From the NCBI GenBank assembly GCA_934597585.1, contig CAKTSA010000020.1, forward strand, positions 1 through 29,593: DNA of 29,593 bases. The letters run 5' to 3'. The position numbers and the translations under genes are program-made. The DNA comes from an uncultured Oscillospiraceae bacterium (lineage in GTDB: Bacteria; Bacillota; Clostridia; Oscillospirales; Oscillospiraceae). Shown in pieces: positions 12,703-25,557 of this stretch (within the stretch, counting starts at the first letter, position 1; each line of letters starts with the position of its first letter). Under the pieces are notes generated by a model that did no database searches, was not told the DNA's origin, and saw only the letters and a list, made by a program, of their open reading frames with translations.

Positions 12703-14175
12703 TTATGCCCAGGGGTTCTCCGTGGCGTAGGGGAGGCTCTTGGGCTGGTTGTAGGCGATGTCCTGGACGCCGAAGTATTTCAGTACCTCGAACAGGGCCT
12801 TGCCGCAGTGGGCAAAGGCGACTGCGCCGTGGTGGGGGTAGCGCTTCTGCACCAGAACGTGGCGGTAGAACCGGCCCATCTCCGGGATGGCGAACACCGC
12901 AATGCCGCCGAAGGAGCGGGTGGCCACCGGCAGAATTTCGCCCTCGGCCACGTAGCTGCGCAGATTGCCCTCGCTGTCGCATTGCAGCCGGTAGAAGGTG
13001 ATTTCGGAGGCGGCGATATCGCCCTCCAGGGTGCCGCGGGTGAAGTCCGGCTCGCTGCCAACAGGCTCCAGCAGACGGTGCTGGATCAGCTGGTATTTCA
13101 CCGCGCAGTCGGAGCACATCTTGCAGCTGGGGGTGTTGCCGCAGTGGAAGCCCATGAAGGTATCGGTAAGTTTGTAGTCAAACTTGCCCTTGATGTCCTC
13201 GTCGTAGATGTACTGGGGCACGGAGTTGTTGATATCCAGCAGGGTCACGGCGTCGCCGGTGACGCAGGCGCCCAGGTACTCGGAAACCGCGCCGTAGATG
13301 TCCACCTCGCAGGCCACGGGGATCCCCTTGGCGGCCAGGCGGGAATTGACGTAGCAGGGCTCAAAGCCGAACTGCTCCGGGAAGGCGGGCCAGCACTTGT
13401 CGGCGAACACCACATACTCCCGGTCGCCCTTGTGGGCCTCAGCCCAATCCAGCAGGGTCAGCTCGAACTGCGCCATCCGCTCCAGCATATCCGCGTAGAC
13501 CTTTTCGCCCATCTCGGCCTTCATCTCGTCCATGATGCCGGCAACGCGGGCGTCGCCCTTGTGGGCGTTGTAGGACACCAACAGATCCAGCTCGGAGTTC
13601 TCCTCGATCTCAATGCCCAGCTCGTACAGGCCCTTGATGGGGGCGTTGCAGGCAAAGAAGTCCTGGGGCCGGGGGCCGAAGGTGATGACCTTCAGATTCT
13701 TCAGGCCGATGATGCCCCGGGCAATGGGAACAAACTCCCGGATCATCTTCGCGCAGTCCTGGGCGGTGCCGATGGGATACTCGGGGATGTAGGCCTTCAG
13801 GTGGCGCATGCCCAGGTTATAGGAGCAGTTGAGCATGCCGCAGTAGGCGTCGCCGCGGCCGTTGATCATGTCGCCGTCGCCCTCGGCAGCGGCGATGCAC
13901 ATGGCGGGGCCGTCGAACTTCTTGACAAGCAGCGTCTCAGGGGTCTCGGGGCCGAAGTTGCCCAGGAAGACCACCAGGGCGTTGACACCGTGGGCCTTCA
14001 CGTCGGCAATGGCGGCGGAGGCATCCTTCTCGTTCTCAACAGTGATGGGGCACTCGTACAGCCCCTCGCCGTACTCAGCCACAATGTTCTTGCGCCGCTG
14101 GGTGGACAGCGCAATGGGGAAGCAGTCGCGGGACACGGCAATAATGCCGAGCTTCACTTCTGGGATGTTCTTCAT
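12703..14175 (-). CDS. L-fucose/L-arabinose isomerase family protein
   Basis: A 490-aa aldose-ketose isomerase of the FucI/AraA superfamily, expected to use a divalent metal and act in the cytoplasm; the sugar is not determined. The N-terminal half has alternating beta/alpha domains (ALVVFLGNFGPETPE, GLKNLKVITFGPRP). The central part carries acidic candidates for the metal site in VACEVDIYGA and LLDINNS, and FHCGNTPSCKMC adds His and several Cys. AAAGGAG lies 10 bases before the ATG. It is the second gene of a two-gene operon, 22 bases behind the DUF4867 gene. No kinase, aldolase or transporter for fucose or arabinose is in the window, so the substrate may be a different sugar or derivative. 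Confidence 0.88.
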   Translation of the reverse strand: MKNIPEVKLGIIAVSRDCFPIALSTQRRKNIVAEYGEGLYECPITVENEKDASAAIADVKAHGVNALVVFLGNFGPETPETLLVKKFDGPAMCIAAAEGDGDMINGRGDAYCGMLNCSYNLGMRHLKAYIPEYPIGTAQDCAKMIREFVPIARGIIGLKNLKVITFGPRPQDFFACNAPIKGLYELGIEIEENSELDLLVSYNAHKGDARVAGIMDEMKAEMGEKVYADMLERMAQFELTLLDWAEAHKGDREYVVFADKCWPAFPEQFGFEPCYVNSRLAAKGIPVACEVDIYGAVSEYLGACVTGDAVTLLDINNSVPQYIYDEDIKGKFDYKLTDTFMGFHCGNTPSCKMCSDCAVKYQLIQHRLLEPVGSEPDFTRGTLEGDIAASEITFYRLQCDSEGNLRSYVAEGEILPVATRSFGGIAVFAIPEMGRFYRHVLVQKRYPHHGAVAFAHCGKALFEVLKYFGVQDIAYNQPKSLPYATENPWA

Positions 14176-14197
14176 AATCTTTTTTCTCCTTTATTGT

Positions 14198-14836
14198 TCA
14201 GATAGAATCGGCAATGTCAAGATTCTTGCCCACCAGGCCCACATAAGCGCCCTGGGCAGCCTCGCTGGATTCGGCGTGGGCCAGCAGCCACTTGTTCTTC
14301 GCCCACAGCAGCTTGTCCTCGGGGGCCAGCTCCTTCAGGTGGGGCTTTTCGGTGTTGGTCAGCCAGGGCAGCGCCACCAGAACCCGGAAGCCCTTGGCAG
14401 GGTCGGTATGGCAGGGGGCATAGTGCAGCGTGGTGGCGTAGACCTCCACCAGCGTACCGGCGGGGGCGCGGAAGGCCTTGACCTTGGCGGTGTCCAGCAC
14501 GCCGTTTTCAATGTCGTCCAGCTTGGCCAGCAGGAGGATAAAGTCCTGGGTGCCCAGGTTGAATTCGGAATCCCGGTGGTATTCCAGGCAGTTCAGCTTG
14601 GTATTATGGCCGTTGCACCAGCCCAGCTGGGCGGGCATGCCGCCGAACAGATTCTCGGAGACCTCCACCGCAGCGGGCAGCTCCTGAAGCGCCGGGTCGG
14701 TGGGGACGTAACCGGTGGCGTCGGGCAGGGGCGTCTGGGCCAGGGTGTCCAGAATCTCGCGGCAGGTTTCCTCCATGCCGGTGATCACCTTGCCATAGGA
14801 CTTGAACGCGGGATCAAATACGGAAAGAATTTCCAT
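14198..14836 (-). CDS. DUF4867 family protein
   Basis: A 212-aa cytoplasmic protein that I match to DUF4867, a family often found beside FucI/AraA-type isomerases; its reaction is unknown. It has cupin-like features: CLEYHRDSEFNLGT supplies His and Glu candidates, and RAPAGTLVEVYATTLHYAPC reads like a beta strand pair with a further His. A sugar-binding or mutarotase-like role is possible but unproven. Two adjacent ATGs exist (14839 and 14836); the second is chosen because GGAGG then stands 6 bases away. It is the first gene of the operon, with a strong promoter about 60 bases upstream. Confidence 0.82.
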   Translation of the reverse strand: MEILSVFDPAFKSYGKVITGMEETCREILDTLAQTPLPDATGYVPTDPALQELPAAVEVSENLFGGMPAQLGWCNGHNTKLNCLEYHRDSEFNLGTQDFILLLAKLDDIENGVLDTAKVKAFRAPAGTLVEVYATTLHYAPCHTDPAKGFRVLVALPWLTNTEKPHLKELAPEDKLLWAKNKWLLAHAESSEAAQGAYVGLVGKNLDIADSI

Positions 14837-14894
14837 CATGTACCTCCTTTGATGCTCTGCGGCAGACCGCAGGCTTCCAGCTTGGGATGGCTCC

Positions 14895-15076: not shown

Positions 15077-15105
15077 TTGAGAAAAGCGCTGCTTCGTGGT
15101 AAAAT
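15077..15105 (+). promoter_or_regulatory. Promoter of the motor-pair operon
   Basis: TTGAGA (15077-15082), 17-base spacer, TAAAAT (15100-15105), about 70 bases before the first start codon. Confidence 0.75.
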
Positions 15106-15175: not shown

Positions 15176-16060
15176 ATGAAATTTCTTGCAAATATGCACC
15201 CCGTCAGTGTGGTCGTCATCATTATGATCCTGATGCTGTTTGCCGTGGCGGCGGTGATGCTGTTCGCCGTCAGCTGCGCCTACCGCCGCCAGACCAAGCT
15301 TGCCATTGTGGGCGATACCCATCGCAGCCAGCTGGTGCGCGATGCGCTGGAGGAATTCACCGCCGCCTACAATACCTTCGGTCAGGAGACCAATACCCCC
15401 GCCATCGTCACCAGCACCATTCATGCGGACATGGGCTTCTACCTGTTCTGTGAGCGGTTTTTGAGCAACGCCGTCTCGCTGTTCGTCACCATGGGCCTGC
15501 TGGGTACCTTCCTGGGCCTGAGCCTGTCCGTCAGCTCCCTGTCCCAGCTGCTGGGCAGCACCGCCGACTGGCAGAACGCGCTGAACAACATGGGCAGCGG
15601 CCTGCTTTCCGCCCTGTCCGGCATGGGCGTGGCGTTCTATACCTCCCTGGTTGGCGTGAGCTGCTCCATCATCCTGACCATTCTGCGCTCCATTTTCAGC
15701 CCGGAGTCCATCCGGGAGCAGCTGGAAAACGAGCTGGAGCTGTGGCTTGACCACCGGGTCGCCCCCCGCCTCAGCACCAACGCGCCGAAGGACGACGCCG
15801 CGCTGGTGCGCCAGATGATCGGCGGGCTGAACGCCGCTGCCGCCGCCATCGACGACGCGCTGAAGGGCTCCACCGGCGCGCTGCAGCAGAGCCTGACCGG
15901 CTTCAACGCCACGGTGGACTGCTTCAACCAGGGCGTGCGGGACTTCTCGGAATTTGATTACAATCTGCGGGGCACGGTGGAAAAAATGGACGTGGCCGTG
16001 CGGGATCTGACCGCCGCCATCCGCCGGGTGACCCGCAGCTCTGAAAGGGGCGACAACTGA
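15176..16060 (+). CDS. MotA/TolQ/ExbB-like proton channel protein (ZorA-like)
   Basis: A 294-aa membrane protein of the MotA/TolQ/ExbB channel family, forming the stator ring of an ion-driven motor. Three membrane helices are visible: about residues 9-32, 93-118 and 148-172. The channel signature is present as TMGLLGTFLGLSLSV and LSGMGVAFYTSLVGVSCS, closer in style to ZorA than to flagellar MotA. A helical cytoplasmic tail of about 110 residues follows, much shorter than the tail of characterised ZorA. It is the first gene of an operon; its TGA overlaps the next ATG by one base. No flagellar, Tol, Exb or Zorya accessory gene is in the window. The role could be envelope maintenance, cell-wall work or defence. 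Confidence 0.87.
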   Translation: MKFLANMHPVSVVVIIMILMLFAVAAVMLFAVSCAYRRQTKLAIVGDTHRSQLVRDALEEFTAAYNTFGQETNTPAIVTSTIHADMGFYLFCERFLSNAVSLFVTMGLLGTFLGLSLSVSSLSQLLGSTADWQNALNNMGSGLLSALSGMGVAFYTSLVGVSCSIILTILRSIFSPESIREQLENELELWLDHRVAPRLSTNAPKDDAALVRQMIGGLNAAAAAIDDALKGSTGALQQSLTGFNATVDCFNQGVRDFSEFDYNLRGTVEKMDVAVRDLTAAIRRVTRSSERGDN

Positions 16061-17082
16061 TGAGAAAAACCAGCCGTCGCACCCAGACCGGCGCCTCCAA
16101 CGGGGAGCAGGGCTTCTGGCCATCGTACACGGATATGATGTCGGCGGTGGCGCTGATCCTGTTTTTCCTGATGCTGCTGGCCTACATCCAGAATATCATC
16201 ACCAACAACGACCTGGCCCATAAGGAGGAGGAGCTGCGCGACACCCTGAATCAGCTGATCGTGGCCACCCAGCAGGTCAAGGACAAGGAGGAGGAGCTGC
16301 AAACCGTCTCCGACAATCTGGAAACCGCCCGGCAGGATTTGGATCAGCAGCAGATCACCCTGGATCAGCAGGCCTCCAGCATCATCGAGCAGGCCAACTT
16401 CATTCTGCAGCAGCAGGAGGATATCGCCGCCCAGAAGGATACCATCGCCCAGCAGCAGGCCCAGATGGCCCAGCAGCAGCTTTATCTGGACAACACCCAG
16501 GCAGAGCTGGGCCAGGTGCGCGCCCAGATGCAGGCGGCGGCCTTCCTGCGGGTGGACATTGTGGAGAAGATCCGTCAGAACGTGGAGCAGGTGATGGGCA
16601 ACGCCAACACCATCTCCATCAGTGACACGGGCAGCCTGGTGCTCAGCGAGAGCGTGCTGTTTGACCAGGGCTCCGCAGAGCTGAAGGCCAACAGCCGGGT
16701 GCTGCTGGATCAGCTGGCCATGGGCTTTGCCAGCTTCCTGGAGAGCAGCGACAGCATCGAGTATGTGGACACCATCGTCATCGGCGGCCACGCAGACAGC
16801 ACCGGCTCCGATACCCTCAACCGCAAGCTCTCCACCGACCGGGCAAATTCCGTGCTCACCTACCTGATGACCACCCAGGGCGGCGTCCTGGCCCCCTACG
16901 CCGAATACTTCTGCGCCGCCGGCTACGGCTCCACCCGCCCGGTGGCCACCAACGAGACGGTGGAGGGTCGGGCGCAGAACCGCCGCATTGAAATTTCCAT
17001 CACCCTGAAGGACGAAAGCGTGCTGGACGCCCTGAATCAGTACCTGGCCATCCAGGTTCCCGGCGAGACCCAAGGGGATTAA
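16060..17082 (+). CDS. MotB/ZorB-like protein with OmpA peptidoglycan-binding domain
   Basis: Partner of the preceding channel, 340 aa. A single N-terminal helix follows FWPSYTDMMSAVALILF; Asp25 sits where MotB and ZorB carry their essential ion-binding aspartate. Next comes a Gln/Glu-rich coiled coil (about residues 50-155, with QQQ repeats), then an OmpA-like domain (about 190-325) with GGHADSTGS, NRKLSTDRANSV, AAGYGSTRPVA and NRRIEIS, the residues that bind the peptide of peptidoglycan. The long coiled coil is unusual for MotB and could span a thick wall. Translation is coupled by a one-base overlap, and GAAAGGGG precedes the ATG. A plain MotB is unlikely because no other flagellar gene is near. 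Confidence 0.9.
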   Translation: MRKTSRRTQTGASNGEQGFWPSYTDMMSAVALILFFLMLLAYIQNIITNNDLAHKEEELRDTLNQLIVATQQVKDKEEELQTVSDNLETARQDLDQQQITLDQQASSIIEQANFILQQQEDIAAQKDTIAQQQAQMAQQQLYLDNTQAELGQVRAQMQAAAFLRVDIVEKIRQNVEQVMGNANTISISDTGSLVLSESVLFDQGSAELKANSRVLLDQLAMGFASFLESSDSIEYVDTIVIGGHADSTGSDTLNRKLSTDRANSVLTYLMTTQGGVLAPYAEYFCAAGYGSTRPVATNETVEGRAQNRRIEISITLKDESVLDALNQYLAIQVPGETQGD

Positions 17083-17118
17083 GAAACCATTATTTTTTTC
17101 TTTTTACAATCATTCCTA

Positions 17119-17147
17119 TTGAACCGGCCCGGTGGATCTGATATAAT
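17119..17147 (+). promoter_or_regulatory. Promoter of the secreted protein gene
   Basis: TTGAAC (17119-17124), 17-base spacer, perfect TATAAT (17142-17147). The palindrome ACCGGCCCGGT (17123-17133) overlaps the -35 and the spacer and could be an operator. A separate promoter means the gene need not depend on the motor operon. Confidence 0.75.
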
Positions 17148-17205
17148 CGGGCATAGAATCCCGCTGCATGATTTGAAAACATAATTTGAAAGGATGGAAT
17201 TGCAA

Positions 17206-18618
17206 ATGAAAATGACCCGCAATGCCGCCCGGCTGCTGTCCGCAGTGATGGCGTTTGTGATGGTGCTCGCCCTGGCCGCCCCCGCCCGGGCGGACAACGA
17301 CGCGGTTTCCGTGGAGCTGGTGCTCGCGGCGGAGGGAATCGAGGCCTCCGGCAAGCTGATCGTCTCCCCGGAGCTGGTGATGTCCATGGGCGTACAGCTG
17401 CTGCTCAACGGCGAAAGCTTTGCCGACCTGACCGGCTATGCCAGCACCCAGGCCGTCGCCGTCAGGAGCGGCTTCCTGGACAAGACCTATGGCGTAGACC
17501 TGGCCACCCTGGCCGAGAATCTGAAAACCTCGATCTTTGCCCCCGACTCCGGCTCCCAGTTCGCGCTGGACGAGGACACCTACAATCAGCTGCAGGCGCT
17601 GCTGAGCGGCAGCCTGCAAGAGGAGCTGCCTGAGCTGCCCGACCTGTCCGGCCTGGACACGGACGCCCTGACCAACGCCATCGAGGTGCTGGGCGCGGCG
17701 GGCGCACAGGCCTTCGACGATATCCGCAATAAGCTGGCCCTGGAATCCGCCCCCGCCACCGTGAGCATCAACGGCCAGAACGTGCTCGTCTCCCAGACCC
17801 GCATCACCGTGAGCACCGAGGCGCTGATCGCTTTCTACGATTCCCTGCTCACCGCGCTGGAGCAGGACGCCGAGCTGCAAAAGGCAGCGGAGGAGTTCTT
17901 CGATTTCTTCGCGCTGTTCGGCTTCATGCAGGATGACCTGTCCATTCCCGACGGCGCAACCGCCGTCCAGACCATTCTGGAGAATATGGACGAGGTTCGC
18001 CAGACCATTACCGACGAGCTGACCCAGGCTGCCCTTTCCGTTTCCGTCGTCACCTGCACCACGGAAAACACGGCGGTGAAGGTGGCCCTGGAAATCTCTG
18101 TGGATGACGAAACCGTGTCCGGCGCGCTGCTGATGAACGAGGCCCAGGACTTCTTCCGCCTGGAGATGGTGGACGTGGACGGCACCGTGACCGCCCTGCA
18201 ATTTGACGTGACCGTTGACACCGACTTGGCCTACGGCTTCCACTTCGGCAGCTACCGGGGAGACGACGAGACCTTCGCCGTCGTCTACAGCCAGGACAAC
18301 ACCGCCCAGACCTATGACGTCGCCGTCACCACCACCGACACTGACTACGAAACCGGCGAGCTGACCGCCAGCACCACCACCGTCTCCGGCAGCTACGTGG
18401 TGGAGGATGAGCTGTTCTCCCTGATCGTAGACAAGGTAGACGGCGAAGCATTCGGCGGCACCGTTACATTGAACATCCGCACCAACGACACCGTAACCAT
18501 GCCCACCTTCAGCGAACTGACCCGCCTGGAGGAAACCGAGTTCGCCACCGTGGTCGAGTCCCTGCAATCCGGCCTGACCACCATAACCCAACTCTTCGGC
18601 ACCACCCCCGCCGCCTGA
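17206..18618 (+). CDS. Secreted protein of unknown function
   Basis: 470 aa. A classical signal peptide is clear: basic MKMTRNAAR, hydrophobic LLSAVMAFVMVLALAA, then ARA before DNDAV, with cleavage near residue 28. The mature protein is acidic. Its first half looks helical with many Leu/Ala (residues about 60-270), and its second half is rich in Thr/Val/Asp with alternating strands (about 280-440). There is no LPXTG anchor, lipobox or later membrane helix, so it is probably released or held by non-covalent contacts. ATG 17206 is preferred over 17194, which overlaps the AAAGG ribosome site. It lies 123 bases after the motor pair and has its own promoter. I do not recognise a family; a link with the motor is only positional. 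Confidence 0.85.
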   Translation: MKMTRNAARLLSAVMAFVMVLALAAPARADNDAVSVELVLAAEGIEASGKLIVSPELVMSMGVQLLLNGESFADLTGYASTQAVAVRSGFLDKTYGVDLATLAENLKTSIFAPDSGSQFALDEDTYNQLQALLSGSLQEELPELPDLSGLDTDALTNAIEVLGAAGAQAFDDIRNKLALESAPATVSINGQNVLVSQTRITVSTEALIAFYDSLLTALEQDAELQKAAEEFFDFFALFGFMQDDLSIPDGATAVQTILENMDEVRQTITDELTQAALSVSVVTCTTENTAVKVALEISVDDETVSGALLMNEAQDFFRLEMVDVDGTVTALQFDVTVDTDLAYGFHFGSYRGDDETFAVVYSQDNTAQTYDVAVTTTDTDYETGELTASTTTVSGSYVVEDELFSLIVDKVDGEAFGGTVTLNIRTNDTVTMPTFSELTRLEETEFATVVESLQSGLTTITQLFGTTPAA

Positions 18619-23694: not shown

Positions 23695-23745
23695 TAGTAA
23701 TTTTTAGATTATTTTTTAAAAAGGAAAGTCAAACCATTGATTTGG

Positions 23746-23774
23746 TTGACTGCGCCTGGATTGTGCGCTACAAT
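23746..23774 (+). promoter_or_regulatory. Promoter of pepF
   Basis: TTGACT (23746-23751), 17-base spacer, TACAAT (23769-23774), 32 bases before the pepF start. Confidence 0.8.
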
Positions 23775-23805
23775 TGGCAGTAGAATATCCAAGGAGGGAT
23801 TCCCT

Positions 23806-25557
23806 ATGAACGAACGATGGAATTTGGATCCGATCTACAAGGGCTTTCAGGACGAGGCCTTTCGGCGCGACCTGCGGGCGCTGGAGCATGCGGTGAAGGA
23901 GCTGGAGACCTTTACCCAGAGCCTGACCGGCGACCCCACCGCGCTGCTGAAGCAGGGGTTGGCGCTGCAGGAGCAGATTTCCGACCTGGCCCAGAAGCTC
24001 TTCACCTTTGCCGAGCTGCGTCAGGCGGCGGACACCATGGATGCCGAGGCCGGCTCCCAGCTGGGACGGATCATGGGCATCTACAGCGAGAGCGCCGCGC
24101 CCAGCGCCGCCTTTGAGAGCTGGTTCGCCCAGCTGCCGGAGCTGGAAAGCCTGATCGACGGGGATGAATTCCTTTCCGGCTACCGCTTCCTGCTGCTGCG
24201 CCGCCGGGACGCCAGCCGCCATCTGCTGCCCGGCATCGGGGAGCGGGTGATGGCCAAGCTGAAAATTTCCGGCGGAAGCGCCTGGGCGGAGCTGCAGCAG
24301 TACCTGACCAGCACCGTCAAGGTGAATTACCGTGGAGAGGAGATCACCCTCTCCGCCGTGCGGAACCTGGCCTATTCCCCGAAGGCGGACGTCCGCCGGG
24401 ATGCCTATCAGGCCGAGCTGTGCAGCTACGCCGCCATCGCCGACCCGGTGGCCTACGCCCTGAACTCCCTGAAGCTGGAGACGCTGAATGAATGCGCCCT
24501 GCGGGGTTACGAAAGCCCCCTGGCCATGACCCTGGAGCATTCCGACATGCAGCGGGCCACGCTGGACGCCATGTTCGCCGCCATTGACGAAAGCCTGCCC
24601 CAGTTCCGCCGGTATCTGCGGGCCAAGGGCAAGGCCCTGGGCCACGAAAACGGCCTGCCCTGGTACGATCTCTTCGCCCCCATGGGCCGCAGCAACACCC
24701 GCTTCACCACCCAGCAGGCCAGGGATTATCTGGTGGAGCTGTTCTCCCACTTCGACGGGGAGCTGAGCGCCATGGTGGCGGAGGCCTTCGACAACGCCTG
24801 GATCGACTTCTACCCCCGCAGCGGCAAGGCCGGGGGCGCGTTCTGCGCGGAGGTGCCCTGCATCGGTCAGAGCCGAATTTTGACCAACTTTGACGGCAGC
24901 CTTTCCGACGTGGTGACCCTGGCCCACGAGCTGGGCCACGCCTTCCACAACCGCTGCATCCAGAATAACCGCCCCCTAAACCGGGATTATTCCATGCCCG
25001 TGGCGGAGACTGCCTCCACCTTCAATGAGTGCGTGGTGATGAATCACGCCATCGCCCACGCCTCCGGCGACCAGGAGAAGCTGAACCTCATCGAGAGCCA
25101 GCTCCAGGACGTGACCCAGATCATCGTGGACATCTATTCCCGCTACCGCTTCGAGGCTTCCGTGCTGGAAAAGCGGGGCCAGGAATTCATGAGCGCCAAC
25201 GACCTGTGCCAGCTCATGCTCCAAGCCCAGCAGGACAGCTACGGCGACGGGCTGGACAAGAAGCTGCGCCACCCCTATATGTGGGTGTGCAAGAGCCATT
25301 ACTACGGCTCCACCTTCTATAATTTCCCCTACGCCTTCGGCGGCCTCTTCGCCCGGGGCCTGTACGCCAAATACGAGCAGGAGGGCGCAGCCTTCGTGCC
25401 CACCTACAAGCAGCTCCTGCGCACCACCACCGTCGCCACCGCCGAGGACACCGCCAGGGTAGCAAACATCGACCTGACCGACAAATCCTTCTGGCGCACC
25501 GCCCTGCTGGAGGTAGAGGAAAAAATCGACCAGTTCTGCCAGATCGTAGGAGAATGA
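23806..25557 (+). CDS. pepF: Oligoendopeptidase F (M3 family)
   Basis: Cytoplasmic zinc metallopeptidase of 583 aa that cuts short peptides internally. The zinc motif HELGH is at residues 374-378 (TLAHELGHAFHNR), and Glu401 in VAETASTFNE is the probable third ligand. The N-terminal helical region and the C-terminal part (GGLFARGLYAKYEQ) are typical of PepF. AAGGAGGG precedes ATG 23806; the frame is open upstream to 23737 but that part overlaps the promoter. It is monocistronic, and repeat block E begins within 10 bases of the stop. Confidence 0.95.
   Translation: MNERWNLDPIYKGFQDEAFRRDLRALEHAVKELETFTQSLTGDPTALLKQGLALQEQISDLAQKLFTFAELRQAADTMDAEAGSQLGRIMGIYSESAAPSAAFESWFAQLPELESLIDGDEFLSGYRFLLLRRRDASRHLLPGIGERVMAKLKISGGSAWAELQQYLTSTVKVNYRGEEITLSAVRNLAYSPKADVRRDAYQAELCSYAAIADPVAYALNSLKLETLNECALRGYESPLAMTLEHSDMQRATLDAMFAAIDESLPQFRRYLRAKGKALGHENGLPWYDLFAPMGRSNTRFTTQQARDYLVELFSHFDGELSAMVAEAFDNAWIDFYPRSGKAGGAFCAEVPCIGQSRILTNFDGSLSDVVTLAHELGHAFHNRCIQNNRPLNRDYSMPVAETASTFNECVVMNHAIAHASGDQEKLNLIESQLQDVTQIIVDIYSRYRFEASVLEKRGQEFMSANDLCQLMLQAQQDSYGDGLDKKLRHPYMWVCKSHYYGSTFYNFPYAFGGLFARGLYAKYEQEGAAFVPTYKQLLRTTTVATAEDTARVANIDLTDKSFWRTALLEVEEKIDQFCQIVGE

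Follow-up and report, generated by a model that had tools for sequence, protein, structure and literature searches.

We describe a pair of adjacent genes, A and B, in a 29,593-nucleotide stretch of DNA from an uncultured Oscillospiraceae bacterium (GenBank assembly GCA_934597585.1, contig CAKTSA010000020.1, positions 1 to 29,593 of the forward strand; hereafter, the window). On balance, and with considerable room for doubt, the pair probably encodes a stand-alone, non-flagellar 5:2 ion motor that is tethered to the cell wall by a rigid axle and is near-core in one genus. The novelty of the pair is a heptad-locked shaft: among relatives, the coiled coil of B keeps its heptad phase while its length varies. 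A first-pass annotation of the window had suggested a Zorya-related or new envelope motor, with defence as one possible role; the non-flagellar envelope motor pair is retained here, with ZorA and ZorB as its best PADLOC matches, and the role in defence is not, as far as tested. The features on which the argument rests are all on the plus strand.

15077–15105, plus strand: promoter of A, sigma-A-like (TTGAGA-17-TAAAAT), read from the sequence
15176–16060, plus strand: gene A, a MotA/TolQ/ExbB-type channel subunit of 294 amino acids (open reading frame (ORF), Pfam, hydropathy, AlphaFold)
15788–16045, plus strand: tail helix of A, residues 205–290, predicted to be cytoplasmic (AlphaFold, conservation)
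16060–17082, plus strand: gene B, a MotB/ZorB-type subunit of 340 amino acids with a transmembrane (TM) helix, a coiled coil and an OmpA-like peptidoglycan-binding domain (ORF, Pfam)
16132–16134, plus strand: codon GAT for Asp25 of B, the ion-binding aspartate of the family (sequence, alignment)
16213–16551, plus strand: coiled-coil shaft, residues 52–164 of B (heptad series, AlphaFold helix)
16657–16983, plus strand: OmpA-like domain, residues 200–308 of B (Pfam, conservation)

A channel subunit paired with a wall-binding subunit

Relatives of A were collected by scanning one genome per GTDB species, and the best 80 of the resulting 214 stretches were kept; the titles of these loci are Oscillospiraceae, Ruminococcaceae, Clostridia, Clostridiales, Eubacteriales, Bacillota or unplaced bacteria, with two Candidatus names, and all 80 come from Oscillospiraceae-type or unplaced metagenome-assembled genomes (MAGs). 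Gene calling and clustering on the 80 loci and the window gave A in 79 sequences (78 loci and the window) and B in 80 (79 loci and the window); in L038 and L061, B is present and A was missed by the gene caller, and L031 stops before B. A second sample comprised 120 further A and 120 further B proteins. The locus set and the further B set partly overlap (P0241 is 99% identical to window B), so the samples are not independent.

A is immediately followed by B, in the same orientation, in 78 of the 79 cases; the 79th (L031) ends at a contig edge. This pairing is far beyond chance, and the pair looks like a stand-alone module. The one-base overlap of a MotA/TolQ/ExbB-type gene with a MotB/OmpA-type gene, reported in the first-pass annotation, is borne out by the ORFs, by Pfam and by the junction itself (TGATG at 16058–16062). 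A loose sigma-A pattern precedes A in 34 of 74 upstream regions, compared with 112 of 740 shuffled ones; vegetative expression of A is plausible, and the promoter pattern says no more than this.

The match of A to MotA_ExbB (PF01618) is weak, yet above threshold (24.1 bits; cut-off, 22.9). Hydropathy indicates three hydrophobic regions (residues 1–38, 95–126 and 141–179), and the AlphaFold single-chain model is all helical (residues 9–45, 52–71, 74–85, 87–127, 132–174, 176–198 and 205–290). Residues T105, T111, T156, S157 and C163 are kept in 198–199 of 199 A sequences; T111, T156 and S157 are present in all 199, at positions that align with ZorA. In one relative (L083; G164:C39:14826-15728), the A homologue contains a single in-frame TGA, which could be a sequencing error or a sign of decay.

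B carries an OmpA domain (PF00691, E value 3.8e-15) in which D246, N254, L257 and R261 are kept in 200 of 200 proteins. The aspartate singled out previously as essential is indeed conserved: the Asp25 position is Asp in all 80 B genes and in 117 of the 120 further proteins, the others having two gaps and one Val. In the AlphaFold single-chain model, one helix (23–179) leads into the OmpA fold, with a predicted local distance difference test (pLDDT) score of 91–95 over residues 61–130. By its MotA_ExbB domain, the Asp of B and the Ser/Thr ring of A, we place the pair, on sequence grounds, in the superfamily of 5:2 ion-driven motors.

A shaft that keeps its heptad phase

In window B, the hydrophobic series L52, L59, L66, V73, L80, L87, L94, L101, I108, I115, I122, I129, M136, L143, L150, M157 ends at R164. 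The coiled coil spans approximately L52–M157 (106 residues), and none of the 80 B linkers contains a proline, in agreement with the earlier estimate of about 105 residues between helix and OmpA domain and with the view that the coil is unusually long and sufficient for a Gram-positive periplasm.

The distance from Asp25 to R164 takes the values 111, 125, 132, 139, 146, 153, 160, 167 or 188 in 79 of the 80 B genes; all nine lengths equal 6 modulo 7, and the lone exception is L062 (135). Among the further B proteins, three of the 120 could not be measured for shaft length, and all 117 that could be measured (one of them at 265) are again 6 modulo 7, so that the phase is kept in 196 of 197 measured proteins overall. 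The globular R164–D246 stretch of the same proteins spans only 81–83. A tree of A was built from 75 of the 79 A genes (four were lost to a motif filter), 74 of which carry a linker label; on this quick, A-only tree, the 74 rows imply at least 29 changes of shaft length and a single change of phase. If all phases were equally probable, 28 in-phase changes out of 29 would have a probability of about 5e-23 (by our own calculation, in which any errors in the tree raise the count of changes).

The same regularity is seen position by position. At offsets of 6 modulo 7 from Asp25 (from offset 26, in the 79 in-phase sequences, omitting the off-phase L062), I, L, M, V or F occupies 98% of 1238 cells, compared with 21% for the next-best offset class. 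The 117 further proteins give 97.9% of 1897 cells and 15.4% for the next class, and in 115 of these 117 the series consists only of A, I, L, M, V, F, Y and W. The window linker alone is weak evidence, as its hydrophobic period is reached by 127 of 2000 shuffles; the strength lies in the comparison among relatives.

Asparagine at an a position favours parallel dimers, and offset 20, an a position, is Asn in 196 of 200 B proteins. Residues A31 and M38 of Escherichia coli MotB, one before and six after Asp32, occupy position a of the dimer interface, according to PMC10659934. By counting, W45 is the next member of that series. Because this register matches the offsets from Asp in B, the shaft series prolongs the a register of the membrane helix as far as R164.

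Heptad steps could also arise from slippage of 21-base-pair (bp) repeats. Tandem Repeats Finder (TRF) arrays occur in 17 of the 80 B genes, with 17 arrays of 21-bp period and none in the window. Identity at third codon positions of B is 0.419 at lag 21 and 0.426 at lag 42, against 0.359–0.401 at the other six lags; at second codon positions, it is 0.502 and 0.475, against 0.238–0.338 elsewhere. We rejected slippage as the sole cause of the heptad rule. Slippage contributes, but what is kept is the amino-acid pattern; we infer from this pattern that the continuity of the shaft is under selection.

At the helix rise of 0.1485 nm per residue, the distance from Asp25 to R164 in the window comes to about 20.6 nm, and lengths of 111–188 correspond to 16.5 to 27.9 nm. 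Cryosectioning gave a periplasmic space of 22 nm in Bacillus subtilis and 16 nm in Staphylococcus aureus, as reported in PMC8141598, which also mentions that another group saw no such space in most Gram-positive species. The match of the shaft length to a Gram-positive periplasm is suggestive only.

The predicted tail of A

The tail of A also varies by steps. The spacing from D192 to G266 is 74 (8 sequences), 81 (40) or 92 (31) in all 79 A genes—steps of 7 and 11—and is 74 or 81 in 115 of the 120 further A proteins. The tail has a hydrophobic period of 3.55 in 196 of 198 sequences. Its tip (residues 246–280) is conserved, with a mean majority fraction of 0.81, and the preceding coil is variable (0.52). 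This pattern would fit tail helices that bundle and share a conserved site of contact, the bundling and the cytoplasmic side being inferred from ZorA as presented in PMC11890865.

Comparison with known motor systems

By sequence, A is nearest to ZorA: ZorA (8vvn) is the sole motor protein matched in the PDB, and the best PADLOC match is ZorA1 (41.1 bits). A scores higher against TolQ and ZorA than against MotA and PomA. For B, the best PADLOC match is ZorB1 (113.1 bits), and the nearest fold is ZorB-I, tied with MotS. As in Zorya (types I–III), a channel subunit with a C-terminal helical tail, here a predicted one, is combined with an OmpA-type B subunit bearing a conserved Asp, and ZorA and ZorB are among the best folds. 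However, A falls short of every NCBIfam ZorA cut-off (38.1 bits of 100, 31.8 of 500, 26.3 of 190 and 16.8 of 700), and no ZorB model is among the matches listed for B (25 of 57). Effector genes (ZorC/D, ZorE, ZorF/G) adjoin the Zorya motor, whereas none was recognized beside A–B. The solved ZorA chain has 696 amino acids against the 294 of A, and the VIA alignment sets residue 19 of ZorB-I on residue 121 of B, which suggests a B helix that is longer by around 100 residues. An added beta-sheet is given as a mark of Zorya in PMC12505986; the model of A contains no predicted strand.

The likeness to MotAB and PomAB lies in B, with its MotB-like TM helix and Asp and its OmpA-like wall-binding domain. 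By contrast, A has the layout of TolQ, ExbB and ZorA, no FliG was found in the genus tested, and the model of B is a single predicted helix from membrane to wall domain, without a separate plug. Flagellar stator A subunits follow a four-TM rule, according to PMC12505986, and have a large torque-generating loop, whereas gene A has only three hydrophobic regions. According to PMC5647336, the plug helices of MotB come together as a parallel coiled coil when the flagellar channel opens, and this open state can be mimicked by an engineered zipper; by analogy, B looks like a natural counterpart of this zipper MotB.

With 340 amino acids and an OmpA domain, B also differs from the small ExbD/TolR-type subunits of TolQR and ExbBD. 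The non-flagellar B subunits of the set in PMC12505986 lack an OmpA domain, according to that paper; A–B would be an exception to that statement, and ZorB is another. The GldLM motor of gliding and the type IX secretion system (T9SS) shares a long periplasmic shaft, which, according to PMC9389320, is 18 nm long, is built of the four domains of GldM and is exclusive to Bacteroidetes. The published description of GldM thus sets it apart from the coiled coil found here in Oscillospiraceae-type bacteria. B also matches the PRK09039 ‘peptidoglycan-binding protein’ models NF006542 and NF006543 (78.3 and 74.8 bits, in two stretches each), but remains below their cut-offs of 388 and 305 bits. Among the openly licensed PubMed Central papers listed by literature searches, none describes the A–B pair.

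Distribution and inheritance

One relative with a species name, L060, comes from Candidatus Limivicinus faecipullorum (genome G006). In the genus of G006, A was matched in 67 of 81 genomes, or in 63 of 77 without the four (G003–G006) that had been chosen for holding A. G376, one of the 67, is represented only by a fragment of 98 residues at the edge of a contig, along with a weak match to a different protein; some misses of A may be draft-genome gaps. In the family of G001, A was found in 14 of 250 genomes including G001. The order of G006 gave matches in 6 of 345 genomes, two strong (one of them G006) and four weak; the two weak matches that were opened are a different, EAL-fused protein. The A genes nearest to that of the window are those of L001 and L002 (75–76% identical), and a B homologue with 69% identity (P0291) is named Faecousia sp.

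Inheritance was compared with that of rpoB in 23 of 30 genomes, rpoB being missing or fragmentary in the other seven. The A+B and rpoB trees have 10 of 20 internal splits in common, compared with 3 at most in 2000 label shuffles, and pairwise distances correlate with those of rpoB at 0.56 for A and 0.68 for B, values that none of 1000 permutations reached. By tblastn, window A matched nothing among 72,556 plasmid and 50,697 phage records, and viral contigs yielded no confirmed relative of A or B; we therefore rejected the pair as cargo of mobile elements. We read A–B as near-core in the genus of G006, with mainly vertical descent there. This makes a housekeeping envelope function likelier than phage defence. 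FliG was found in 0 of the 81 genomes of this genus (the control was positive in 4 of 14), and EH_signature (ZorC) in 0 of 81, although no control genome matched either. Taken together, the neighbourhood and distribution data and the absence of FliG count against a flagellar use and make a role in defence less likely.

A second motor-like pair occurs in related genomes (L151:1015-4289, L152:3172-6527, L153:931-4271, L154:1287-4561, L155:404-4266 and L156:1030-4424). Its first protein, of around 525 amino acids, combines MotA_ExbB (PF01618) with a C-terminal EAL domain (PF00563, E values of 1e-49 to 1e-56 in L151, L155 and L156, the three scanned with Pfam). The partner, of 562–736 amino acids with a 4-base overlap, has a MotB-like motif at its N terminus and carries SpaA/prealbumin-like repeats (PF17802) in place of OmpA. 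From sequence, this second pair appears to be an ion channel fused to a cyclic di-GMP-type domain, with a pilin-like outer subunit; among the papers listed by a separate literature search, none concerns it.

Gene neighbourhood

No third gene is near-universal among the clustered called genes of the 79 neighbourhoods, and the gene called after B lies on the same strand in 38 of 75 cases and on the opposite strand in 37, so no longer operon is suggested. These neighbour tables are approximate: in the window, the gene caller picked an antisense shadow instead of the next gene, C.

17119–17147, plus strand: promoter of C (TTGAAC-17-TATAAT), read from the sequence
17206–18618, plus strand: gene C, a secreted protein of 470 amino acids with a signal-peptide-like start, judged to lie outside the module (sequence)

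The first-pass annotation was right about the size, secreted nature and separate promoter of C, and had linked it to the motor pair as a neighbour. This link is not upheld: when 11 of the 120 listed homologues of C were run by tblastn against 93 sequences (the window plus 92 loci, some of which overlap each other or have short flanks), the window alone gave a match, and C was rejected as a third partner. C forms a family of its own of at least 170 proteins at an E value of 0.001; neither window C nor five homologues passed a Pfam cut-off, and PADLOC gave no match in C. The lack of any co-occurring neighbour, named beforehand as grounds against the motor, thus applies to a third partner and not to A and B themselves.

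As had been noted previously, no flagellar, Tol/Exb or Zorya effector protein was found among the window proteins scanned (16 with Pfam and 6 with PADLOC). PADLOC at 1e-5 also gave no match in 20 neighbour proteins (3 from the window, 7 from L001 and L002, and 10 representatives of recurring clusters). The commonest neighbour cluster is an M3/PepF oligoendopeptidase, in 23 of 79 neighbourhoods including the window and directly before A in 19 of 75; in the window, a PepF-type peptidase lies at 23737–25557, 6.6 kb downstream of A–B. PepF is absent from most neighbourhoods, and we rejected it as a partner and took it as local gene order. Other commoner clusters are ABC ATPases (18 of 79), a LysM/GH18 protein (11) and an aldose epimerase (10). 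By Pfam, the recurring neighbours are LysM/GH18, M23 peptidase, aldose epimerase, ABC ATPase, release factor, PPIC isomerase and DUF4349; although some are wall-related, each of these clusters is present in 6 to 18 neighbourhoods, so that none is a constant partner.

Elsewhere in the window, a large serine recombinase (Resolvase, Recombinase, Zn ribbon and DUF4368) ends beside an opposite-strand tRNA-Leu (460–2121 and 2170–2253 for the two features), possibly the edge of an integrated element. On the minus strand, 12703–14839 encodes an L-fucose/sulfoquinovose isomerase-like protein (PF02952; NF048012 below cut-off) and a DUF4867 protein.

Proposed mechanism and alternatives

We propose that five A subunits would ring two B TM helices, with Asp25 of B facing the Ser/Thr ring of A, as in homologous motors. 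From the membrane helix, B would run on as one continuous parallel coiled coil, in register over about 16 heptads, carrying the OmpA-like domain some 18–20 nm out to the peptidoglycan. Ion flux would then turn the A ring against the wall-fixed B axle, and the tail helices of A, bundled as in ZorA, would pass force or a signal inward to a cytoplasmic partner. Relatives would be held by selection to altering the shaft almost only by whole heptads, which keeps its continuity. By analogy with zipper MotB, B may be held in an activated form by its built-in zipper, with control exerted through wall binding or from the A side. The output of such a motor may be wall-coupled mechanics or signalling.

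Several observations weigh against this account. The models are of single chains, with a mean pLDDT of 74.8 for A and 77.6 for B and predicted template modelling (pTM) scores of 0.50 and 0.49, and a Foldseek search of the A model against the PDB gave nothing at an E value of 0.001 or below (the best, ExbB, was at 1.2e-3). At the second core position of the shaft (offset 2 modulo 7), T, Q or A predominates; with a single hydrophobic core position in each heptad, the coil of B may be weak or form another oligomer. DNA slippage alone can yield some of the heptad steps, and five of the 120 further A tails leave the main series (spacings of 38, 58, 75, 79 and 85, the last being +11). As regards inheritance, the correlation of A with rpoB drops from 0.56 to 0.45 without G002, A and rpoB distances give the same nearest neighbour for no more than 6 of the 23 genomes, and the rpoB tree lacks some A+B splits that have support of 91–100. 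None of 60 further genomes from the genus of L001 and L002 contains A, an absence as compatible with loss or horizontal transfer as with a core role.

This last, sporadic presence in the nearest genus of the window is also what a Zorya-like anti-phage sensor might show, in which ZorAB homologues would detect wall damage and the effector would be encoded elsewhere. The PADLOC matches to ZorA1 and ZorB1, the single PDB motor match to ZorA, the ZorB-I-like fold of B (shared with MotS) and the predicted tail of A all point the same way. We nevertheless regard this explanation as unlikely: no third gene recurs, PADLOC recognized nothing in the 20 neighbour proteins, the best NCBIfam ZorA score is well under its cut-off, and EH_signature is absent from the 81 genomes (the control being equally blank), whereas A is present in most genomes of the G006 genus and in no plasmid, phage or viral contig searched. 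A flagellar stator, or the remnant of one, would account for the MotB-like TM motif and the OmpA domain of B, but is hardly credible given a genus that holds the pair and has no FliG, and an A subunit with three hydrophobic segments and a preference for TolQ and ZorA over MotA and PomA.

Two further explanations make use of the shaft itself. B could be a gauge rod set in the wall, sensing wall tension or the distance from membrane to wall, with movement relative to A gating ion flux or a signal through the tip of the A tail and with no continuous rotation. The heptad steps in rod length and the conserved tip beyond a variable coil would suit such a sensor, and the EAL-fused MotA_ExbB subunits of related genomes indicate that such channels can carry signalling domains; yet Pfam finds no signalling domain in A or B and no partner was found, and we consider a sensor of this kind doubtful, if worth keeping in mind. 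A passive tether or spacer, in which A merely holds the B dimer and conducts nothing, needs no more than a rod and a wall-binding domain, and heptad steps would be expected of any rigid spacer. The almost invariant Asp25 of B and Ser/Thr residues of A would be needless in a tether, which we judge improbable.

Implications

The 5:2 motors known so far come from flagella, Ton, Tol, gliding/T9SS and Zorya, and A–B would be a further branch. To our knowledge, the Oscillospiraceae have no outer membrane to energize. More tentatively—and we hold this as a possibility rather than an expectation—the pair may represent a new class of motor in gut bacteria, with a natural, stutter-free zipper axle in one register from Asp to wall domain, the length of which would be tuned in each species, by heptads, to the gap between membrane and wall. 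Such a machine could act on wall geometry as an energized gauge or wrench and would always be in the activated state, which flagellar MotB enters only once its plug helices have zipped. The relatives of B provide a natural length series of one axle (111 to 188, with one at 265) in which phase is kept, and thereby make it testable whether a 5:2 motor needs a continuous, rigid B rod.

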